Shown: positions 1,285-14,924 of the stretch, one piece after another | How positions within the stretch are numbered: position 1 is the first letter of the stretch | Layout: the number at the start of each line of letters is the position of its first letter | Origin: a virus | DNA length: 31,154 bases | IMG/VR virus record: IMGVR_UViG_3300036772_000236 | Coordinates: 1 to 31,154 of that record | Reading direction: 5' to 3' (one strand) | The notes under the pieces: generated by a model | The model's input: only the letters and a program-made list of their open reading frames with translations | Databases searched by the model: none | What the model was told of the DNA's origin: nothing | Translations under genes and position numbers: made by a program

Positions 1285-1949
1285 AAGAAATCCATCGGTT
1301 CCTGCCGCGCGGGCCCGGCGGATGCCGCGAAACAGAAATCCAATACCTGCTGATCAAGTCGCTTCGCCGCCAGCGCGCAATAGCGCTCCTCGATCTCGAT
1401 TCCGACCCCGCGCAAGCCAAACTGCCGCGCGGCGATAAGGGTCGTTCCGCTTCCCATGAACGGGTCGACGACCGAGGTAACGCCGGGGAACTGGCGCAGG
1501 CACCACTTCATGAGCGCGAGCGGCTTTTGCGTTGGATGCCCGACGCGCTCCGCGTTCGTAGCGGCGATCGACTGCACGAGGTATCGGGTGTTGCGGTTCT
1601 GATTCGTCCAGGCAAACTCAACCCCGCCCATCGACGGCGGCGCATCCGGTTTGCACCACGCGAGCCAGCCGCGCGAAGGCGCGAGCGCGTAGTGATTGCC
1701 GCCCCAGACCACCTGGATTTTCCCGTGTGGCAAAACTGACGGCAGATCGTCGAATGTCTGATCGTCCCAGCGTTCGGGCTCGCGCCCTGCGCGCTCCTGC
1801 CATTTCGTCGGGTCCGCCGCGAATCCAATCCCGTATGGGGGGTCCGTCAACAGGAGGTCGAACGCACTTAGTGCGGGCAACACATCGCGGCAGTCGCCGC
1901 AATAGATCGAGATGCCCGCGTTTTCGTAGTACGGCGTCAAGACATCCAC
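1272..1949 (-). CDS. Beta-class DNA methyltransferase (N6-adenine or N4-cytosine)
   Basis: The 225-residue protein carries DPPYG at residues 36-40 (motif IV) and DPFMGSGTT at 162-170 (motif I, SAM binding), preceded by HPTQKP at 138-143. The order motif IV, then target-recognition region, then motif I defines the beta class of the N6_N4_Mtase family. DPPY favours adenine N6 methylation, but N4-cytosine cannot be excluded. The start is GTG at 1949, inside the last codons of the terminase gene. No cognate restriction endonuclease is visible nearby, so it is probably an orphan phage methylase that protects phage DNA or alters host regulation. Its place between TerL and tail genes links its expression to packaging. 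Confidence 0.92.
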   Translation of the reverse strand: MDVLTPYYENAGISIYCGDCRDVLPALSAFDLLLTDPPYGIGFAADPTKWQERAGREPERWDDQTFDDLPSVLPHGKIQVVWGGNHYALAPSRGWLAWCKPDAPPSMGGVEFAWTNQNRNTRYLVQSIAATNAERVGHPTQKPLALMKWCLRQFPGVTSVVDPFMGSGTTLIAARQFGLRGVGIEIEERYCALAAKRLDQQVLDFCFAASAGPARQEPMDFLCQT

Positions 1950-3433
1950 CCCCCGCGCGGTGGCACGTAGCCGTAATCCGCAGCGCGCGGCGCGGCGACC
2001 GCCTGCGTGAACGTGAGCGCGAGCGCGTCCGCGTCATCAACCGGCGGAACGTTGCGCTTCTGCATCTCCTGTTTCGATTCCAAAACAAGCTGGTTCGAGC
2101 GGTTCAGGTGGTAGCCCGGGCTCGTTAAATCGACTTCGAGCTTTTCGTCGTTCCTGTCGATCGCGCCGCGCGCGAGCCACTCTTTCATTTCGTTCCACAT
2201 GTACGAGCGCATGTTCGCGAAATGAATATCGGGCGTCCGCGTCTCGCCGAAATTGACTTCGACCACGTTGTCGAACCCGAGCAGATGGAGGCGTTCGACG
2301 ATGGGCGCGCCGAACGCCGAATCGACGAACAGCGCGGCGACGCGCGCGTCCGGATCGCGCACGCTCAAAACCTGCGATAGCTTCGCGATCATGACTTCGC
2401 GGGTGCCGGTTTCGCCGGCGAGGCGGATCGGATGCGGAATGCGCGGGCCCGGGCGCGCGTTCAGACCGCGGCGGAAGCGCACCACGTTCCACGCCTGGCC
2501 GCCGGCGGAAACATCGCAGCCCGCGACCAGCGGCTCGTCGGCGAGGGCTTCGCGCTCGCGTTTCTGCGCGTCCTGCACGCGCCCGAGATCGATGTACTGC
2601 AGTTCCGACGCATGAGGCGGGACGCCGCGCACGCGGACGCGCACGAAGTCGGAGTCCTCGCCGTAATCCGCGACCCATTCGCCGATCTGTTTCAGGTTTG
2701 TGCGGCGCGACGTGCGGGAGTCGATTGAGCGGTGATTCCAGCGCGGCCGCCCGGCGCCGAACGTGACGCGGTGAAAAAAGCCGCTGTTTCGCGTGGGGTT
2801 GCCAAACAAAAACTCCATCGGCTCGCCATCGCTCAAACCTCCCTCAGCCGCTTCAAAGATCGAGTCCGGTACCGCGCTCGCCTCATCGAAAATATAGAAG
2901 GACGTCGCCGTAGCGGCGTGCTGGCCGTGGAAGGCCTCCGAGTTTTCCTCGCGGCATGTCTGCGCGCTGCAAAACCACTTCGCCGCGTAATGGACGTGAT
3001 ACATGCGATTCCCGGTCACGCGGAACCAGTGCGCCGTTATGCAAAGCCCCGTCCAGTACTGAATCGCCGCCCAGGTTTTGGTTTGCAATTGAATAAAGGT
3101 GTTTGCAGTAACGGTCCCCTGGGAAAACGGGCGCGTCGACATGATCCAGTCGACGAGCCACGCTACCAGCGTCGATTTGCCGATGCCGTGCCCGCTGGCC
3201 GTCGCCATGCGGATTGCGATTACCGCGTGCGCGCCGTCGAAGCCGCGCTCGCGCACTTCGCGCCCCACGTCACACAGAAACGCGGTTTGCCATTCATCGG
3301 GACCGGCCTCGTCGGCCAGTTGGCCCGGTTCGCCCCAGGGGTATGCGGCGAGTACGAAGCCAAGCGGGTCCGCGAAGTACTGCGCCAGCTCGCCGGCGAG
3401 CTCGATGTCAGTTTGGTTGTCGAGCGCCGTCAT
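1937..3433 (-). CDS. terL: Terminase large subunit (packaging ATPase-nuclease)
   Basis: This 498-residue protein has both terminase domains. The ATPase domain shows a Walker A-like SGHGIGKST at residues 80-88, Walker B SFYIFDEAS at 178-186 with catalytic Glu184, and a coupling motif GNPTRNSG at 211-218. The RNase H-like nuclease domain shows acidic residues in AGCDVSAGG (Asp307), ALFVDSAFG (Asp371) and PPVDDADALAL (Asp466, 467 and 469). It drives DNA into the prohead and cuts concatemers. Length fits the family. The gene starts at the ATG at 3433, overlapping the small-subunit gene by 26 bases, and its 3' end overlaps the methyltransferase start. The call is very secure; the packaging mode (headful or cos) cannot be read from it. 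Confidence 0.97.
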   Translation of the reverse strand: MTALDNQTDIELAGELAQYFADPLGFVLAAYPWGEPGQLADEAGPDEWQTAFLCDVGREVRERGFDGAHAVIAIRMATASGHGIGKSTLVAWLVDWIMSTRPFSQGTVTANTFIQLQTKTWAAIQYWTGLCITAHWFRVTGNRMYHVHYAAKWFCSAQTCREENSEAFHGQHAATATSFYIFDEASAVPDSIFEAAEGGLSDGEPMEFLFGNPTRNSGFFHRVTFGAGRPRWNHRSIDSRTSRRTNLKQIGEWVADYGEDSDFVRVRVRGVPPHASELQYIDLGRVQDAQKREREALADEPLVAGCDVSAGGQAWNVVRFRRGLNARPGPRIPHPIRLAGETGTREVMIAKLSQVLSVRDPDARVAALFVDSAFGAPIVERLHLLGFDNVVEVNFGETRTPDIHFANMRSYMWNEMKEWLARGAIDRNDEKLEVDLTSPGYHLNRSNQLVLESKQEMQKRNVPPVDDADALALTFTQAVAAPRAADYGYVPPRGGWMS

Positions 3434-4115
3434 GGCCGTTTACCGCCTGCGCTTCCGCGTCGGCTGCAGCCTTCGCCGCGGCCACGCGCGCGCGCCCCGC
3501 ATTCAGGCGCTGGACAATTTCGATCGGGCCGCCGCCCGGCCCGGTGAGCTCCATCGAGCCGTACTGGCGGTATCGCTCGGGCATCTCGGCGCGCAGCCGC
3601 AGCGCGAGCAGCATGTCGGATTTCTTCCAGACGCCGAGCGGACGCGAGCCCGGCACGTCGCGGACGCCGATCTTCGCCGGTGTCAAGACCTTGCCGCCGC
3701 GGCCGAGAACCGCGGGCTCGATCTCGTATTCCTCCTGCGGATAAGTCCAGCGGCCCTGAAAGACGTTCGGCTCGAAAACGCCCACCATCGCGCGGCGCGT
3801 GGCTTCGTCTTCGAGCGATTGCGCGGCCTCGGCCTTCGCCTGCTTGAAGCGCGGCGCGTATTCCGGGCGGTCCCGCAGCCAGTCGTAGTGCGAGCGCGGA
3901 TTGATATGCGCCGCGCGCGCCGCGGTGCGGATCGAGGCGCAGACCACATACGCCGCCAGAAATGCCGCCATCTTGTCGACGGTGCGGCCTGGCCGTTTTG
4001 CGCGCTTCGCTTTTCGCGGCGCGGGCGCTGCAGGCGTCGCGGCTTCCGGTTGCGGTTTGGGTTTCGCGGTGCGTTTAGCGGCCTTTTTGGCGGGTTTAAG
4101 CGGCTTCGTCTTCAT
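3408..4115 (-). CDS. terS: Terminase small subunit
   Basis: The 235-residue product has a Lys/Ala/Pro-rich basic tail (residues 1-45) and then a helix-turn-helix at about 58-82 (SIRTAARAAHINPRSHYDWL), expected to bind the pac or cos site. A C-terminal segment KKSDMLLALRLRAEMPERYR near 165-185 resembles the segment seen before the C-terminus in many small-terminase-like phage proteins. It lies directly upstream of, and overlaps, terL, the classic arrangement. The start ATG at 4115 overlaps the stop of the preceding membrane-protein gene as ATGA, indicating coupled translation. Identification rests on HTH, C-terminal motif and position together. Confidence 0.88.
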   Translation of the reverse strand: MKTKPLKPAKKAAKRTAKPKPQPEAATPAAPAPRKAKRAKRPGRTVDKMAAFLAAYVVCASIRTAARAAHINPRSHYDWLRDRPEYAPRFKQAKAEAAQSLEDEATRRAMVGVFEPNVFQGRWTYPQEEYEIEPAVLGRGGKVLTPAKIGVRDVPGSRPLGVWKKSDMLLALRLRAEMPERYRQYGSMELTGPGGGPIEIVQRLNAGRARVAAAKAAADAEAQAVNGHDGARQPN

Positions 4116-4351
4116 GCGGGGGGCAGGGTATCGATGTTTTTATCCGCCGGGCGTTCCATTTGCCTGCCCCACGGTGTCCCGAAAGCCCACTGCGAAAAGC
4201 CGCCGCCCAGGGTGGCGAGCGTCGTCACAATTGGCATAAGCCCGTGGCTGGTAGCTTCTTCTACTTTGCCCAGCGCGATTTCCGCGGCGAGCCACGCGAG
4301 AATAGCGAGCAACGCAAAGCCGAAAACCATCTTGAAGTAATCGAGTCTCAC
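4112..4351 (-). CDS. Small membrane protein, unknown function
   Basis: This 79-residue protein has a hydrophobic segment at residues 8-26 (VFGFALLAILAWLAAEIAL) and a weaker one near 38-57 (LMPIVTTLATLGGGFSQWAF), then a polar tail. It could span the membrane once or twice. The start is GTG at 4351, overlapping the NusG-like stop as GTGA, and its own stop overlaps the terS start as ATGA. Small size and hydrophobicity would suit a holin or other lysis or superinfection protein, but no endolysin is adjacent, so I do not name it a holin. The reading frame is well supported by coupling on both sides. Confidence 0.78.
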   Translation of the reverse strand: MRLDYFKMVFGFALLAILAWLAAEIALGKVEEATSHGLMPIVTTLATLGGGFSQWAFGTPWGRQMERPADKNIDTLPPA

Positions 4352-4761
4352 GCCGCCGCCCGCGCGCAGTAGATTTCCGCCTCGCCGATTTCGAGCGCGC
4401 AGGCGCGGTTCAGAAACTCAGCGCGGACAACCAGCCGCCGGCCGCCCTTTGATCTCTCTACTACGCCCGTAAAGCCCGCGAGCGGCCCGCGCGCAACCGT
4501 CACGATTTCCCCTCCGTGCCATTCCGCCGGCGTGAGCGATTCCGGGTTCGCCGCGGCAATCTGCAGATTTCGGATTACCTCGGCCGGAATCGCTTCGGGA
4601 CGCCGCCCTCCGAGCAGCCCCACGACGCCGCGCGCCGCGAGAATCGCCGAGCGATCCGCCGCGAGATCCGCGCAGACGAAAACGTAGCCGGGAAACAGCG
4701 GACGCCGGCGCAGGAGGTCCGCGCCGTGGAAGCGATGGCGGCGCAGGTAAAACGGCACCAC
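4348..4761 (-). CDS. NusG/RfaH-like transcription elongation or antitermination factor; true start upstream
   Basis: The protein has the NusG N-terminal signature PLFPGYVFV at residues 21-29 and a C-terminal KOW-type segment GGEIVTVARGPLAGFTGVV at 83-101. Such factors bind the RNA polymerase clamp and promote elongation or antitermination; specialised paralogues (RfaH, LoaP, UpxY) act on single operons. The GTG at 4761 used here is probably too short: in the same frame the sequence upstream encodes ALWYALRTRSNFEFAVAAAL (about 4839-4780), the usual first strand and helix of the domain. No in-frame ATG, GTG or TTG exists between the upstream stop (4930-4932) and 4761. As first gene of the packaging operon it probably lets polymerase read through the late genes; that is inference. 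Confidence 0.85.
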   Translation of the reverse strand: MVPFYLRRHRFHGADLLRRRPLFPGYVFVCADLAADRSAILAARGVVGLLGGRRPEAIPAEVIRNLQIAAANPESLTPAEWHGGEIVTVARGPLAGFTGVVERSKGGRRLVVRAEFLNRACALEIGEAEIYCARAAA

Positions 4762-4965
4762 GGTTTCAAGGCGCGAGGCGAGCGCGGCGGCGACAGCGAA
4801 CTCGAAATTAGAACGGGTGCGGAGCGCGTACCAGAGCGCGGGGTCTTCAGGTTGTAAAAAAGGCCGCGCTACGCGCCCTTCGGTCGAAATCGACGCGACG
4901 ATCGGTCCAGCAATGACCGGCGGATCCAGTCACGGGTATAGTCGTCGCGCGCGCGGAAAGATTTT

Positions 4966-5019
4966 CACACACTATTGGGAATTGCGGTTTCCCCGCAAAT
5001 CGTGTCTCAGCCGATCTCG
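4966..5019. repeat. Left copy of ~55-bp inverted duplication (pairs with 7192-7250)
   Basis: Positions 4966-4999 read, on the plus strand, CACACACTATTGGGA, four bases, then CGGTTTCCCCGCAAA. The reverse complement of 7217-7250 matches 32 of these 34 bases. After an unmatched spacer of different length (6 against 11 bases), CTCAGCCGATCTCG at 5006-5019 again matches the reverse complement of 7192-7205 with one difference. This copy covers the 3' end of the coiled-coil gene and lies upstream of the NusG-like packaging operon. Read on the minus strand it contains TTGCGG, a 16-base spacer and AATAGT, which could be a promoter. Function is unknown. Confidence 0.85.
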
Positions 5020-5456
5020 AATGTTTTCAGCGGCCGCGCGCCGCGGTAGCCGTACGTGACGACGCGCGCGAGCACGTCCGGCGCCAGTGTCTCTTCGAGC
5101 GCCTTGAGCGTCGGCCGCGCGATCGCGGCGTAGGCTTTCAGTCCCATCGATTTCTGGACGGCCGCGTAATCGACTTCCGACTGCCAGGCGCACGCGCCGA
5201 GCGTCGCGAAGTACGCATCGCCGCGCGCTTCGAAGGATTTCGACGCGGGTTTCTTTTCGAACTGGCGGCGGATCAGTTCGCGCAGGGTTTCGACGCGGCG
5301 CAGTTTGACGCGCGCCTGCACCAGTTCGGCTTCCAAACTCCCGAGCTCGTCGATATAACGCGCCAATAAAACCGCGGGGTCCGTCTCGACGACGGCGAGC
5401 GCGGCTTTTTTAGCCGTCGGCGACGGCGCGGCGGGTTTGCGGGCGGGGGCGGCCAC
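5007..5456 (-). CDS. Coiled-coil hypothetical protein
   Basis: The conserved-looking part is the C-terminal ~140 residues. A long amphipathic helix (RYIDELGSLEAELVQARVKL and following) is succeeded by a compact domain ending ARVVTYGYRGARPLKTFEIG. The frame is open up to 5741, but that would run through the divergent plus-strand gene at 5650 and the palindromic operator region, so I take the in-frame GTG at 5456. ATG codons at 5561 and 5591 remain possible. No enzymatic motif is visible. The size and helical N-terminus loosely recall Gam-like DNA-end-binding phage proteins, but I see no decisive match. It is transcribed toward the NusG-like gene and divergently from the two-HTH regulator. Confidence 0.6.
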   Translation of the reverse strand: MAAPARKPAAPSPTAKKAALAVVETDPAVLLARYIDELGSLEAELVQARVKLRRVETLRELIRRQFEKKPASKSFEARGDAYFATLGACAWQSEVDYAAVQKSMGLKAYAAIARPTLKALEETLAPDVLARVVTYGYRGARPLKTFEIG

Positions 5457-5551
5457 GTGTCTGTAAGTCGTCGCGGCCGCGGCGGGGTTCGCGCATGTTC
5501 GCTTTTTGTTCTCTTTTCGCTTTTTATTCGCATGACACGCTCGGCGCTCCC

Positions 5552-5608
5552 TTGAAGTCATGACTTCAACCGTCTGTCGGTGGTGTCGCATGTTAGACTC
5601 GACAGACG
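5552..5608. promoter_or_regulatory. Two palindromic operator-like sites between divergent genes
   Basis: TTGAAGTCATGACTTCAA at 5552-5569 is a perfect 18-bp palindrome. Immediately next to it CGTCTGTCG (5571-5579) and CGACAGACG (5600-5608) form a perfect 9-bp inverted repeat with a 20-base spacer. Both lie between the start of the plus-strand two-HTH gene (5650) and the minus-strand coiled-coil gene. Paired, distinct dyads between divergent genes are what repressor binding sites look like. No clear sigma70 promoter was resolved. The binding proteins are unknown; the HTH protein starting at 5650 is a candidate autoregulator. Confidence 0.65.
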
Positions 5609-5649
5609 CGACCGACGCTTTAACGACACGCGCGACAAAGGGGTGACAA

Positions 5650-6384
5650 GTGGGAATAGATTCAATCGAAACGGCATTGTGGCTCGGCCCTCCAAAGAAA
5701 GGCGCGACAGGTCCGCTCGACAGTGACGACTGGCTCGGCAAAGCGCAGGCCGCCGCATTGCTCGGCGTGCATCCCCGGCAACTTGAGCGGCGGGCGAGCG
5801 CAGGTCAGGTTAGAAAACGCATCCTGCCCAAAAAGCCGTCCGAGAAAGCGGCCCGAGTGGTTTATTTTAGGGAGGATCTGGAAGCGATTAAACGCGATCC
5901 GCCCGAAGCTCACATGGACGAGTCCGAACTGGTCCTGTTAAAACAACACGAGGAAAAAGAACAGGAGAAGGAACGCGCCGCAATCGAACGCGAGCGCAAT
6001 ATCGTAGTGTCGGTGGATCGCCTCATCGCGGCCATCGAAATACAGAACAGGGCGACATCTGATTCGGACCGCGCAGCACAATCCGCCGCCGATGCAAAGC
6101 AACTCCAGGCGATTGAGGCACTCTCAGCGGCTTTTATACGCGCGTTTCCGCCTCCCGCGCCCGGACCGAGGTATTGGCTCAAACTGACTGAGGCCGCCGA
6201 ATATTCCGGGCTCACTGAGGCGTGGCTGCTCGCTCAAGCGCGCGCAGGCGCAGAATATGCTCTGAACGTAGGAATGGGAACCCGCGCGAACTGGCGGTTC
6301 AACCGTGAGATGCTCGGTACCGGCAGCGGACGACCAAAAGGCGAACTGACGTTCAACCGGGAAACGCCGCAAACCGTGCCCTGA
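5650..6384 (+). CDS. Two-HTH DNA-binding protein with central coiled coil
   Basis: This 244-residue protein starts at GTG 5650, preceded by AAAGGGG at 5637-5643, a good Shine-Dalgarno site. Residues 28-82 form a MerR/excisionase-type helix-turn-helix (WLGKAQAAALLGVHPRQLER, then a wing with VVYFREDLEAI). Residues about 90-165 are charged and helical (EEKEQEKERAAIERER). Residues 175-222 form a second HTH-like unit (WLKLTEAAEYSGLTEAWLLA). Two DNA-binding units joined by a long helix suggest a regulator that bridges or dimerises over two sites. It is the only plus-strand gene in this area and is divergent from the coiled-coil gene, with palindromes between. Repressor, excisionase or partition-type roles are all possible. 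Confidence 0.8.
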   Translation: MGIDSIETALWLGPPKKGATGPLDSDDWLGKAQAAALLGVHPRQLERRASAGQVRKRILPKKPSEKAARVVYFREDLEAIKRDPPEAHMDESELVLLKQHEEKEQEKERAAIERERNIVVSVDRLIAAIEIQNRATSDSDRAAQSAADAKQLQAIEALSAAFIRAFPPPAPGPRYWLKLTEAAEYSGLTEAWLLAQARAGAEYALNVGMGTRANWRFNREMLGTGSGRPKGELTFNRETPQTVP

Positions 6385-7054
6385 GCAGCGTGACACCCGA
6401 ATTATGCAGACGATATGCGCGGCCCGGGGATATCCCGAGCAGCGCCGCAGCCGCGCGCACCGTAGTCGCGGCCGCCGCGCCGCCTGCATAAACTACCTGC
6501 AATAGCCGTTTCTCGCCCGCTGGCAGCGTTTCGACGGCCGCGCGAATGGTTTGGCCGCGGCGAGCGCCGTCGATCGCGTCCTCGATCGCCGAAGCGCCGT
6601 CGATGCTGCAGCCAAAATCATCAGCGCACGGAAGCGGCTCGGTAAGCGGCTTCAACGCATGGCGCCCTTCGCCGCCCGACCATTCGCGGCGCACTGCGTC
6701 CGCGATCGCGCCGCGGATATGCGGCCGAGCAAAGGCCTCGAACGGCACGCCGCGGTTTTCGCGCGGCCTGTAGCGGCCGGCGGCGCGCATCAGGCCGAGC
6801 CGGCCGGCCGATTCCAGATCGTCCAGATCGAACCGCGCGGGCAATTTGGCTCTTACTGCCCGCGCGATCGGCGCCACCAGTTGAAGATGGTCGCAGACCA
6901 GCGCGTCCCGGCGGGATCGGGAGAGCTGCCGGGGTTTGGCTGAATGACTGATCGCGCTGGCCGTAGTGGTCGGATTGTACCGACCTGTATTAATTGGGTC
7001 AAGGTCGCTGTTTGTTCGCCTTTTGTTTACCTTTTCGCCGTTTGGTTGCGTCAT
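6353..7054 (-). CDS. FliA/WhiG-type sigma factor (phage-encoded)
   Basis: Counting from ATG 7054, residues about 52-123 match sigma region 2: LVCDHLQLVAPIARAVRAKL, then DLDDLESAGRLGLMRAAGRY and FEAFARPHIRGAIADAVRR. This is the core-binding and -10-recognition domain of the FliA subgroup. Residues about 166-228 form region 4 (VETLPAGEKRLLQ to TVRAAAALLGISPGRAYRL), the -35-recognition HTH. Region 3 is reduced. It probably redirects host polymerase to phage promoters. The start is uncertain: ATGs at 7054 and 7072 are possible, but a strong promoter at 6974-7002 lies inside that extension, and no ATG, GTG or TTG occurs between it and region 2. The 3' end overlaps the convergent two-HTH gene by 32 bases. 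Confidence 0.85.
   Translation of the reverse strand: MTQPNGEKVNKRRTNSDLDPINTGRYNPTTTASAISHSAKPRQLSRSRRDALVCDHLQLVAPIARAVRAKLPARFDLDDLESAGRLGLMRAAGRYRPRENRGVPFEAFARPHIRGAIADAVRREWSGGEGRHALKPLTEPLPCADDFGCSIDGASAIEDAIDGARRGQTIRAAVETLPAGEKRLLQVVYAGGAAAATTVRAAAALLGISPGRAYRLHNSGVTLLRARFAAFPG
6968..7002 (-). promoter_or_regulatory. Sigma70-type promoter with operator over the -10 box
   Basis: On the minus strand TTGACC (7002-6997) and TACAAT (6979-6974) are separated by exactly 17 bases, close to the sigma70 consensus. The -10 box is enclosed by a perfect inverted repeat: GGTCGG (6968-6973), the six -10 bases, and CCGACC (6980-6985). A protein bound there would block the promoter. It points toward the sigma-factor gene, with transcription expected to start near 6967. 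This is downstream of the ATG candidates for that gene, so either the sigma start is non-canonical or the promoter makes a shorter product. Confidence 0.65.
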
Positions 7055-7191
7055 TCGCGAGGTGATTCGCATCCGCGCCGGTTTTCGCGGTGCGGGCGGT
7101 TTGAGCGCCACGCAGCCGCGAGCCCTCGGCGCGTCCGCCGGGCGAAAGACGCTCACCGCCTGGCAGTGGATTTATTTTTTTTGCTTGGGCA

Positions 7192-7250
7192 CGAAATCGG
7201 CTGAGGCGGGTGACGTTTTGCGGGGAAACCGTAAATCCCAATAGTGTGTG
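7192..7250. repeat. Right copy of ~55-bp inverted duplication (pairs with 4966-5019)
   Basis: Positions 7217-7250 on the plus strand contain TTTGCGGGGAAACCG, four bases, then TCCCAATAGTGTGTG. They match the reverse complement of 4966-4999 at 32 of 34 bases. CGAAATCGGCTGAG at 7192-7205 matches the second conserved block. The pair encloses about 2.2 kb with the coiled-coil gene, the two-HTH gene and the sigma factor. Each copy includes GGGGAAACC, which resembles the 10-bp repeats just to the right at 7287-7326. This copy lies in a gene-free stretch between the sigma gene and the replication operon. Confidence 0.85.
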
Positions 7251-7902: not shown

Positions 7903-8894
7903 AGCGGACGCCTTCCGCGCGACATGCGCCATTTCGCCAGATCGAGCGCAGCCTGAGTTGCAGGAGAGTGGATGCCGTTCGCCTGGCCTCCGTTTGCCGT
8001 GCCCACCACGGCCGCGTAGGCTTCGCGGTTCGCTTCGCAGGCAGCGGCGATCTTGATGAACAGCTTCCAACTGCGCGGCTGCGCGGACTCGCAGGCTTTC
8101 GTGAACTGCTCGAATACGCGCTCGTCGGGGATATGCGCCGCGATCGCGTCGAGCACCTGTGGGCTGAGTCCCGTGGGTAGCGGAAATTTGCCGGTCAGCC
8201 ACGCGCGCAGCAGTTCTTTGAGTGTTGGCGGGGAAACAGACGAACGAACGGTTTCTGTTGCTGCCGGAAGCGGCGCAGAAACGGTCTGTTCGTCCGCTTC
8301 GCTCTCTTTCTCACGAACTTCTTTTTTTCTCAATAAGGATAGGCCCCCGTTTGTCCTGGAAGCCAGGTACTTTTTGTAATCGGAGAGCAGGACTTTTTTG
8401 ATTCGTTTGACCGTGGAGTTAGCGACTTCCATTTCCGCAATGTCCGTGGAGTGCGCGACTTTCCAGTCCTCGTAAAAACTCCGAAACTCATCGGATTTTT
8501 CGCTGCCCGCGTTCGGTTGGGCGCCGAGGACCGGACTCGGGACCGGGTAAAGGACTTTCCCCCGGACCTTCACGTATCCGCGCCGCTCGAGGTAGGAGAC
8601 GGCCGCTGAGACTCGCCGCTTATCGACACCCAGTTCGCGCGCACAGTCCGCTTGAAACTTTTTCACCGTCGTGTCGGGAACGATGCAGTAAAGGGAATGG
8701 CAACCCCACGAGTAACGCTTGATCCAGGCGAGGACGCGCTCGGCAATTGTCGCCAGGCGATCGCCCATGATCGCGGCGAGCGAATCGTTGAAGTCTTTCG
8801 TGTAATAGAGATCGCGCGTTGCGCGCTCGAAGTCAGGCCGCGGATCCTCCGAAAAGTCCGGGGAGTCCAGGACTTTTTTGGCATCGGCGATCAT
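7899..8894 (-). CDS. Replication initiator-like protein with winged helix
   Basis: The 331-residue protein starts at ATG 8894, overlapping the upstream stop as ATGA and preceded by a G-run. Residues about 50-117 contain a winged helix-turn-helix (FQADCARELGVDKRRVSAAV, then YLERRGYVKVRGKVLY as the wing), typical of phage initiators and plasmid-type replication proteins. The middle is charged and probably flexible. The C-terminal part (about 225-331) is helical and may bind a loader or helicase. Copies of a GGACTTTT motif occur within and just before the gene, as origin repeats do inside lambda O. Initiator is the best reading, but a transcription regulator with the same fold is not excluded. 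Confidence 0.7.
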   Translation of the reverse strand: MIADAKKVLDSPDFSEDPRPDFERATRDLYYTKDFNDSLAAIMGDRLATIAERVLAWIKRYSWGCHSLYCIVPDTTVKKFQADCARELGVDKRRVSAAVSYLERRGYVKVRGKVLYPVPSPVLGAQPNAGSEKSDEFRSFYEDWKVAHSTDIAEMEVANSTVKRIKKVLLSDYKKYLASRTNGGLSLLRKKEVREKESEADEQTVSAPLPAATETVRSSVSPPTLKELLRAWLTGKFPLPTGLSPQVLDAIAAHIPDERVFEQFTKACESAQPRSWKLFIKIAAACEANREAYAAVVGTANGGQANGIHSPATQAALDLAKWRMSRGRRPL

Positions 8895-8926
8895 AGGCCC
8901 CCCCGGACTTTTTTAAAAAGTCCGGG
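8849..8926. repeat. Cluster of CCGGACTTTT motifs including a 12-bp-arm palindrome
   Basis: GAAAAGTCCGGGG (8851-8863), AGGACTTTTTTGG (8869-8881) and a perfect palindrome with 12-base arms (CCCGGACTTTTT at 8902-8913, one central T, its complement at 8915-8926) lie within 80 bases. A degenerate copy, CCGGACT, follows at 8932-8938, and further copies lie inside the gene at 8388-8400 and near 8551. The cluster spans the junction of the HTH gene and the initiator gene. This could be the initiator's binding region (origin) or an operator for the operon. Confidence 0.65.
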
Positions 8927-9523
8927 AAGTACCGGACTATCTTTACGGTTCTTTACATTTACCGCGTCCAGCAGTTCCTCGACGCTCTCTTTGATCGCGT
9001 CCTGCGCGCCGAGCTGGCGCAGCCAGGCTTCGGCGCGGGGTCCGCTGGGGGGCGTGCGCTGTATGGCAAAGCGCGTCGCTTGGTTTCCGCCAGCCAGACG
9101 GTACAGCAGGGCATAACAGTATTCCGGCGCGTACGTGGTTCCATATGCAGTGTGCAGCGCCACGGAAAAGGCTTTCGCGGTCCAGCCCCGCCTCTTGCCC
9201 CAGACTTTGCCGATCTGCTCATCTGTCAGGATCGGCGCACGACCGACAGGGGAATGGCCGCGTGCCATCTGCGGATCGTCCAGCACCAGCGGCGGCGGCC
9301 GCAGCACGCGCGAACGCTTCTCGCCGCGTACCCAGCGGGACACCGTTGGCTGCGAAACGTTTAACGTCTTCGCGATCCAGATCTGTGTCCAGCCCTCACG
9401 AAAGGCCTTGATCGCCATCATGCGGCGCCATGCGATGTCCGCGTCGGTCGGCTGCGCAGACGTCGCTCCTGTCGCGGTGGGCGGCGGCTTCGGGTTGTCG
9501 GCGTTTGGGTTGGATTCGATCAA
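8891..9523 (-). CDS. Paired-HTH DNA-binding protein resembling the IS630 transposase N-terminus
   Basis: Residues 36-66 form a homeodomain-like HTH (AFREGWTQIWIAKTLNVSQP, then TVSRWVRG). Residues 98-145 (LTDEQIGKVWGKRRGWTAKAF to YALLYRLAG) form a winged HTH as seen in the second half of the IS630/Tc1-like transposase DNA-binding region. No DDE catalytic domain follows; the protein ends after about 60 more residues with LFKKVRGGL. It is therefore not an active transposase but could be a DNA-binding domain taken over for phage control. It leads the replication operon and overlaps the initiator as ATGA. The start used is TTG 9523; no ATG is in frame upstream. MMAIKAF (residue 35) is a shorter alternative. 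Confidence 0.75.
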   Translation of the reverse strand: MIESNPNADNPKPPPTATGATSAQPTDADIAWRRMMAIKAFREGWTQIWIAKTLNVSQPTVSRWVRGEKRSRVLRPPPLVLDDPQMARGHSPVGRAPILTDEQIGKVWGKRRGWTAKAFSVALHTAYGTTYAPEYCYALLYRLAGGNQATRFAIQRTPPSGPRAEAWLRQLGAQDAIKESVEELLDAVNVKNRKDSPVLPGLFKKVRGGL

Positions 9524-9812: not shown

Positions 9813-9862
9813 TGTAAACATTTCCGTGTGACGCTCTGACGCGCGCTCCGCACTTAAAACTG

Positions 9863-9905
9863 CGCCCGGTTTCGGCCCTTCGGGGCTCGGAAATCGGGCG
9901 TTTTT
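9863..9905. terminator. Rho-independent terminator, probably bidirectional
   Basis: CGCCCG (9863-9868) pairs with CGGGCG (9895-9900), with further pairing through GTTTC and GAAAT around a TTCG loop. On the plus strand TTTTT follows at 9901-9905; on the minus strand the hairpin is followed by CAGTTTTAAG. It lies just beyond the stop of the minus-strand gene at 9911-10099, supporting that small gene as real. Confidence 0.75.
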
Positions 9906-9910
9906 CTGCG

Positions 9911-10099
9911 TTATTTTTTAAGTGACAATTCGACACAATCGTTAACCGTAAATTTTACAAAATACGACCCTTGCTCGTCATCAGGAATTTTTGCGATACG
10001 GCGGGCGATCAAGGCTGCAACTAGAACGCGCTTCGCGCCTTTCGGTTGGCGTCCGGGCGCGAGTGCGGCGGCAAAGCACAGATCGATGGCAAAAAGCAT
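9911..10099 (-). CDS. Small hypothetical protein (62 aa)
   Basis: ATG at 10099 opens a 62-residue frame ending with KIPDDEQGSYFVKFTVNDCVELSLKK and a TAA at 9911. A strong terminator follows immediately in the direction of transcription, and the predicted sequence has mixed charged and beta-type character rather than the Arg/Ala-rich look of antisense frames in this genome. The frame continues upstream as far as 10172 (including RTFWTRDPDLD) without a canonical start, so the protein may be longer. No family is recognised. It is an isolated single gene between the replication operon and the plus-strand gene at 10236. Confidence 0.5.
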   Translation of the reverse strand: MLFAIDLCFAAALAPGRQPKGAKRVLVAALIARRIAKIPDDEQGSYFVKFTVNDCVELSLKK

Positions 10100-13950: not shown

Positions 13951-14252
13951 CACCGAAAGTCTAACCCACCGCGGTCGCGTCCGCAGGCGGATCCGCGCGC
14001 CGCGCCCGCGAAACGAGTTGGTCGCAATCTGCGAAAACCGCGTATCGCGCCGCGTATTTTTCAGGGGGGCAGGGTGTTACCTCAATGTACCCGCGGGGAG
14101 CCCGAAGGGCGAACTTCGGCGAGGTCGTGAACAAGTCTCAACGTCAAAGTAGTATGTGGTTTGAGCGCGGTCGGGCGTTCGGCGCGATTGCGTCGCGCGT
14201 GGCGTGAAATGGTGTACTCTTGAGTGAGTCAATACCATTGAGAAAAAGGACC
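13951..14252. other. Gene-free stretch between divergent accessory run and integrase
   Basis: About 300 bases separate the first accessory gene (minus) from the integrase (plus). No gene is convincing. TAGTAT occurs near 14147-14152 in an otherwise GC-rich sequence and might be a -10 box for the integrase, but its -35 is poor. A phage attachment site often lies beside the integrase gene; none can be recognised without the host junction. Confidence 0.35.
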
Positions 14253-14924
14253 ATGCCCGCGAGAAAAACACCGACAAAACGCCCAAAAACACGCCGAGTG
14301 GTTCAGTCCAGCCGAATTGAACCTCCCAAGAAACCCCGCCGCATAAAGCGAGCGTACTCTCTGAGCGCTGATTCCCAGTACCTGACAGCCTCTGAAATCG
14401 CTGCGTTGTTCAATGTGATAACGAGCGTTCGCGACCGCGCATTGTTCCGCGTCATCTACCATCGGGGGCTGCGCTCAAGCGAGGCCGGTTTACTTCAGTT
14501 GAGCGACTGGAACGAGCGCGACAATAAACTGTTCGTACGCCGCGGCAAAGGCTCGGAATCTAAGGAGTATCATTTGCTCCCGTTTGAAGCGACCGCACTG
14601 CGCGCCTGGATAAAGCGGCGCGGTCGTGAGCCGGGCCCGTTGTTCCCCACCAGACAGAAACGTTCGGGCGGCCTTGGCATTCATCGTAATCAGCTTTTTC
14701 GACTCTTCCGGGGGTATTGCCTGAAAGCAGGTATCCGGCCCGAAAAACATCACATGCATGTTCTCAAACACTCCTGCGGTACGCATTTGAGCGATCGCGG
14801 CAACTCACAGGACGTTATCAAGGACTGGCTCGGCCACAAATCCGCGCAATCCACTCAGGTATATATGCACTTCTCGCAACACAGGCGAGATGAGGCCTGG
14901 GAACGCAACAAGGACTGGCGTTGA
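14253..14924 (+). CDS. int: Tyrosine recombinase / phage integrase (short form)
   Basis: With the ATG at 14253 the protein has 223 residues. The catalytic set is visible: Arg74 in RGLRSSE, Lys99 in RRGKGS, His169 in HVLKHS, His195 in WLGHKSAQ and nucleophile Tyr204 in TQVYMHF. The usual second arginine (HxxR) is Lys172 here. The N-terminal core-binding domain is missing or reduced to a basic tail (residues 1-33), so it is a minimal catalytic-domain integrase. AAAAAGGA precedes the ATG very closely; TTG 14220 is an alternative start. It should integrate phage DNA at an att site. The downstream T5orf172 gene starts at its stop (TTGA). Confidence 0.9.
   Translation: MPARKTPTKRPKTRRVVQSSRIEPPKKPRRIKRAYSLSADSQYLTASEIAALFNVITSVRDRALFRVIYHRGLRSSEAGLLQLSDWNERDNKLFVRRGKGSESKEYHLLPFEATALRAWIKRRGREPGPLFPTRQKRSGGLGIHRNQLFRLFRGYCLKAGIRPEKHHMHVLKHSCGTHLSDRGNSQDVIKDWLGHKSAQSTQVYMHFSQHRRDEAWERNKDWR

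Follow-up and report, generated by a model that had tools for sequence, protein, structure and literature searches.

Mirrored copies of one element flank the regulator genes

The virus record IMGVR_UViG_3300036772_000236, whose own assembly is the single contig analyzed here over its full 31,154 nt (the window), contains an element of ~57 bases that is present twice, in mirrored orientation, on either side of the regulator genes. The gene adjoining copy 1 downstream encodes a NusG-family protein and heads a leftward packaging operon, and we tentatively favor, at less than even confidence, the idea that the two copies, which face outward, may be sites at which the phage loads its own NusG paralogue for processive antitermination. 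By analogy, such sites would be the functional counterpart of lambda nutL/nutR, with a NusG-family factor replacing N. Each copy consists of two blocks:

4966–5003, minus strand: copy 1, block B (ACGATTTGCGGGGAAACCGCAATTCCCAATAGTGTGTG), identical to copy 2 at 35 of 38 positions
5006–5019, minus strand: copy 1, block A (CGAGATCGGCTGAG), identical to copy 2 at 13 of 14 positions
7192–7205, plus strand: copy 2, block A (CGAAATCGGCTGAG)
7213–7250, plus strand: copy 2, block B (ACGTTTTGCGGGGAAACCGTAAATCCCAATAGTGTGTG)

Both copies point outward from the regulator block and, read in this direction, each runs from block A (CGARATCGGCTGAG) over a short spacer to block B (ACGWTTTGCGGGGAAACCGYAAWTCCCAATAGTGTGTG). 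The spacer measures 2 nt in copy 1 and 7 nt in copy 2, and besides this length change the copies differ by four substitutions; their flanks, outer as well as inner, are unrelated. In a repeat scan of the whole window, no inverted repeat ranked above the pair 4966–5003/7213–7250 (38 nt; 92% complementary; arms separated by 2,209 nt), and the remaining long inverted pairs were 70–83% complementary. A 32-base core with ≤3 mismatches occurred twice in the window and never in 100 shuffles, which excludes a chance origin of the duplication; the 31-kb contig has no third copy. A first-pass annotation of this DNA had described an inverted duplication of ~55 bp with outward-facing copies, and both points are borne out by these data. 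Its figure for the larger block (32 of 34 bases) was slightly low, while that for the smaller block (13 of 14) agrees with ours.

The region between the copies includes the following features:

5007–5741, minus strand: coiled-coil gene (ORF and coding score)
5650–6384, plus strand: HTH_17/excisionase-type regulator gene (domain and family matches)
6353–7156, minus strand: FliA/WhiG-type sigma gene (Pfam Sigma70_r2, 5e-9; FliA_WhiG, 6e-19)
5552–5569: perfect palindrome of 18 bp (TTGAAGTCATGACTTCAA) in the divergent start region of the coiled-coil and HTH genes
5864–5892, minus strand: leftward sigma-70-like promoter candidate (TTTAAT-17-TAAAAT), rank 2 in the window

The true start of the coiled-coil gene is probably near 5460–5530, and the ATG at 7054 is the likelier start of the sigma gene. 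The copies enclose the coiled-coil, HTH, and sigma ORFs as originally described, with the correction that copy 1 overlaps the end of the coiled-coil gene, where its block A doubles as the final codons and stop (Glu-Ile-Gly-stop).

Block A is part of a coding sequence in copy 1 but not in copy 2, as would be expected if the 3' end of the coiled-coil gene had been duplicated in inverted form together with its downstream sequence, either recently or without any function. The modest divergence between the copies points the same way, as do changes in a predicted hairpin (see below) that are no better than random and the fact that conservation in relatives could not be shown. We nevertheless consider this explanation unlikely, because both blocks were kept while the intervening spacer changed in length and sequence, and because the two copies neatly delimit the regulator block.

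Far less probable still is an invertible segment of 4.97–7.25 kb with ends that are flipped by site-specific recombination. The inverted orientation and the identical central bases would suit such a segment, and a short tyrosine recombinase encoded at 14220–14924 also matches DNA-invertase models (1.5e-18). However, this recombinase matches XerA/XerC and phage integrase models better, its gene is 7 kb distant, and the proposed sites differ in spacing and at four bases. Moreover, no site is present beside the recombinase gene: apart from the pair itself, the core is matched in the window only at 8227 and 26052, with 2 mismatches and at chance level.

The copies are poor matches to sigma-70 and FliA promoters

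The first-pass annotation proposed TTGCGG-N16-AATAGT as a promoter used twice. This motif ranks about 409 to 410 in the window (212 in the best alternative register) and is absent from the consensus scan. Neither copy has good sigma-70 −35/−10 hexamers at 16–18 nt (ranks 212–410). Similarly, neither scores against the FliA (sigma-28) promoter TAAAGTTT-N11-GCCGATAA, a consensus that may not be that of the phage sigma factor, and the search for FliA-type promoters returned none. The GCCGAT within block A is one of >50 in the window. The element is, therefore, not a good candidate for a sigma-70 or FliA promoter. The further suggestion that it is more than an ordinary promoter holds, in that the whole tract is conserved, including the tail; this conservation exceeds what a promoter needs and, together with the outward orientation, favors loading of the NusG paralogue at the copies.

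Alternatively, a regulator of the phage could bind both copies as DNA, by analogy with lambda oL/oR; the HTH protein, the phage sigma factor, and a repressor are the candidates. Copy 1 would then control the NusG/packaging operon and copy 2 the sigma gene, which starts ~60–150 bp away. We regard such operators as quite possible and place the loading sites slightly ahead of them. Both copies are located just ahead of regulator genes and have the HTH and sigma genes between them, their orientation would be immaterial for operators, and the TTGCGG-N5-CCGCAA half-sites are approximately one helical turn apart, as would suit a dimer. The lambda oL/oR pair likewise appears as inverted repeats. By contrast, the long asymmetric conserved tail and the 38-bp tract exceed the needs of a simple operator, the palindrome is broken in copy 2, and the copies fit neither sigma-70 nor FliA promoters. 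Also, the 18-bp perfect palindrome at 5552–5569, which is the sole one of its kind in the window and is likely an operator, is the better candidate.

A NusG-family gene with a putative leader terminator heads the packaging operon

Two features lie to the left of copy 1:

4348–4842, minus strand: NusG/UpxY/RfaH/LoaP-family antiterminator paralogue, first gene of the leftward packaging operon
4856–4881, minus strand: terminator-like hairpin followed by T6 (stem of −12.2 kcal/mol, TTTTTTAC tail; fold z of −2.4), between copy 1 and the NusG-type gene

The NusG-type gene was not named in the first-pass annotation, and taking it into account changes the most natural reading of the element. The ORF matches Pfam NusG above the cut-off (1.3e-6) and KOW below it, as well as phrog_6386 (3.2e-15). 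An AlphaFold model, for which 29 relatives were used, comprises an NGN domain together with a KOW domain folded as a beta barrel (pLDDT of 84, well predicted from approximately residue 23) and matches NusG and RfaH structures in a fold search. Based on sequence and this model, the protein encoded behind copy 1 is a member of the NusG family with NGN and KOW domains. By curated cut-offs, it is not UpxY (1.1e-17; 64.6 bits against a cut-off of 100), LoaP (42.2 against 125 bits), or RfaH (50.2 against 144.5 bits). Among solved structures, its best sequence match is 8f5g, an entry titled as a NusG-RNA complex, and this is a point in favor of loading at the copies.

In the stretch 4834–4935 on the minus strand, which also contains the terminator-like hairpin, ATG, GTG, and TTG are absent in frame from the upstream stop to the first conserved residue (Trp-Tyr) of the NusG-type ORF, and possible start codons are limited to CTG, ATT, or ATC. 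An unusual start, a frameshift, or a sequence error could each account for this.

The genes for the small and large terminase subunits are located downstream of the NusG-type gene, all of them leftward, and the earlier proposal that links the element to the packaging operon stands. Toward the right end of the contig, the long genes are leftward too, and a circular or permuted genome would make one long leftward late operon. The presence of a NusG paralogue and a terminator-like hairpin directly behind copy 1, followed by leftward terminase genes, argues for antitermination starting at the element.

A possible hairpin in both copies and a proposed model for NusG loading

Each copy could form a hairpin with a five-base GGAAA loop in the outward transcript:

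4982–4998, minus strand: possible RNA hairpin of copy 1, UUGCGG-GGAAA-CCGCAA (a 26-nt stretch folds at −11.2 kcal/mol)
7217–7235, plus strand: possible RNA hairpin of copy 2, UUUGCGG-GGAAA-CCGUAAA, with one G-U pair

In copy 2, the predicted fold is −8.1 kcal/mol on the outward strand and −2.1 kcal/mol on the opposite strand; that this copy keeps the GGAAA-loop hairpin on the outward strand only favors loading of the NusG paralogue there. Survival of the hairpin between the copies is not significant, since three changes placed at random in copy 1 preserve it equally well in 52% of cases. This weakens the case for loading sites, and we dropped copy-to-copy conservation of the hairpin as a sign of RNA function. 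Rfam gave no family above the gathering threshold in the whole window. No boxA-like match was found beside either copy, and boxA-like matches in the window are at or below chance; the lack of an adjoining boxA-like sequence and the predicted nature of the terminator also count against loading at these sites.

If the copies do load the NusG paralogue, leftward transcription would start in the regulator block, possibly at the candidate promoter at 5892–5864, and cross the coiled-coil gene. The sequence of copy 1 would then be exposed, in the form of either an RNA hairpin or non-template DNA, for the NusG paralogue to load there onto RNA polymerase, and the loaded complex would pass the putative terminator at 4881–4856 and continue through the packaging and structural genes. 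Copy 2 might have the same role for a rightward transcript. By coding scores, the genes at 7.3–9.5 kb to the right of copy 2 are on the minus strand, and outward transcription from copy 2 would therefore be antisense to them. That copy 2 points into leftward genes and has no obvious sense target is the weakest point of the proposal. A still bolder version, in which the viral NusG paralogue, in place of an N or Q protein, acts at the mirrored hairpins as an early-to-late switch that couples read-through of the packaging operon to antisense shutdown of the replication-side genes, appears improbable to us.

To the right of copy 2, two leftward genes meet between a pair of AAAAGTCCGGG...hairpin sequences (8852–8879 and 8916–8943) that are 82% alike, and a strong leftward promoter-like site is present nearby at 8917–8890. 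Farther along, the plus strand at 9862–9901 has a very strong hairpin (−28 kcal/mol) followed by a T-rich stretch. We considered this strong terminator as the end of a rightward transcript; it is explained instead by the small leftward ORF that it adjoins (9911–10099, minus strand).

Comparison with known antitermination systems and operators

The same repeat scan applied to the lambda regulatory region recovered the oL/oR as well as the nutL/nutR pairs as inverted repeats around the regulators. Because lambda has mirrored pairs for both classes of sites, the pattern alone decides neither for nut sites nor for operators. Recovery of nutL/nutR as an inverted pair around regulators (20 nt, 90%, 2,730 nt apart, hairpins with five-base loops) nonetheless lends support to loading sites. 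Like the phage pair, nutL/nutR with N are mirrored outward sites ~2–3 kb apart around regulators, form short hairpins with five-base loops, and have the antiterminator gene directly downstream of the leftward site; the lambda-type five-base-loop hairpin is found in the predicted outward transcripts of both phage copies. The phage pair differs from nut in that it has no boxA, that a NusG paralogue replaces N, and that copy 2 has no sense genes to its right. The gene behind copy 1, which was screened for an N-type arginine-rich antiterminator, encodes a NusG-family protein instead. Judged by its sequence, the element is not a lambda nut site, as boxA is missing beside the copies and an N-type protein behind copy 1. 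The oL/oR pair shares with the phage pair the inverted regulatory sites on both sides of regulator genes and differs in that no sigma-70-like promoter coincides with the phage copies.

Other NusG paralogues also offer parallels. In the dfn and mln leaders on which LoaP acts, a small hairpin precedes an intrinsic terminator, and the same hairpin is present in the two target leaders (PMC12691694). The phage likewise combines a NusG-family protein with a predicted leader hairpin and terminator; the LoaP hairpins are UNCG-type, whereas the phage loop is GGAAA. UpxY prevents termination in the leader upstream of upxY in Bacteroides capsule operons (PMC7819879). The UpxY model is the best-scoring curated model for the phage protein, and both genes head their own operons; however, the phage protein scores below the family cut-off, UpxY serves capsule genes rather than a phage packaging operon, and the literature consulted describes no mirrored pair for UpxY. 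The LoaP (PMC12691694) and UpxY (PMC7819879) leaders are precedents that favor loading at the phage copies. RfaH is a NusG paralogue recruited by a specific leader element, ops, which forms a hairpin in non-template DNA (PMC7819879). The phage protein differs from RfaH in that its KOW domain is modeled as a beta barrel and not as a helical hairpin, and it scores below the RfaH cut-off. On these data, the phage protein may recognize RNA, as for LoaP (PMC12691694), or non-template DNA, as for RfaH (PMC7819879).

Phage NusG paralogues recur upstream of terminase genes

Exact and relaxed patterns for the element gave no match in IMG/VR, and 396 acidobacterial genomes contained none with ≤3 mismatches, a result of little weight, as the phage host need not be an acidobacterium. 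A search of related phages for the block also gave no match, as none of the relatives that were found shares this early module. For the sigma and HTH proteins, neither IMG/VR nor the cultured phages yielded a useful relative; an acidobacterial sigma match proved to be a chromosomal FliA with flagellar genes as neighbors and was rejected as a prophage gene. The closest phage by terminase (L004; large terminase 80% identical to window 1937–4115) has a different early module without the NusG gene and the element, and its unrelated early region marks a sharp exchange of regulatory modules. Near the other terminase relatives and in alphaproteobacterial prophages, the NusG gene was not found.

A two-sequence profile search identified relatives of the NusG-type protein at 48 viral loci. 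In all 19 loci with a recognized large terminase (L003, L030, L033, L035, L038–L044, L047, L049, L054, L061, L065, L066, L073, and L075), the gene for the large terminase is located 0.5–2.9 kb downstream of the NusG paralogue on the same strand; by comparison, arbitrary ORFs of these loci are placed in this way in 63 of 279 cases. The count of 19 includes L003 and one of each duplicate, and several loci are close relatives, so that the independent cases are fewer; loci without a recognized terminase, including a group of large phages, were not counted, and few terminase queries were used. The terminases belong to phrog_38, phrog_9, and phrog_2. This recurrence upstream of terminase supports the proposal that the NusG paralogue loads at the copies. 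On the other side, no relative with the element was found, and the leaders of other phage NusG genes are enriched neither in repeats (10 of 55 versus 51 of 295 controls) nor in terminators (8 of 54 versus 45 of 216). A dedicated pair of sites is, therefore, not general to phage NusG genes.

NusG paralogues activate long capsule, antibiotic, and conjugation operons, and the two reviews cited here touch only briefly on copies carried by prophages (PMC7593976, PMC7819879). If the proposal is true, a phage NusG paralogue with dedicated recruitment sites for late genes would be a further route beside N and Q, and the mirrored pair would provide a compact test sequence for recruitment of NusG paralogues. 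Independently of this pair, the question can already be tested, given that NusG paralogues recur in several phage groups immediately ahead of terminase genes.

We also noted that in one group of phage NusG loci, the gene for the small terminase subunit directly precedes the NusG paralogue. The contig with the closest NusG paralogue (L029:1971–6336) additionally contains genes for a GroEL-like chaperonin and a Ku-like DNA end-binding protein. Upstream of another phage NusG paralogue, ~210 nt (L071:5315–5525) are largely self-complementary with internal repeats.
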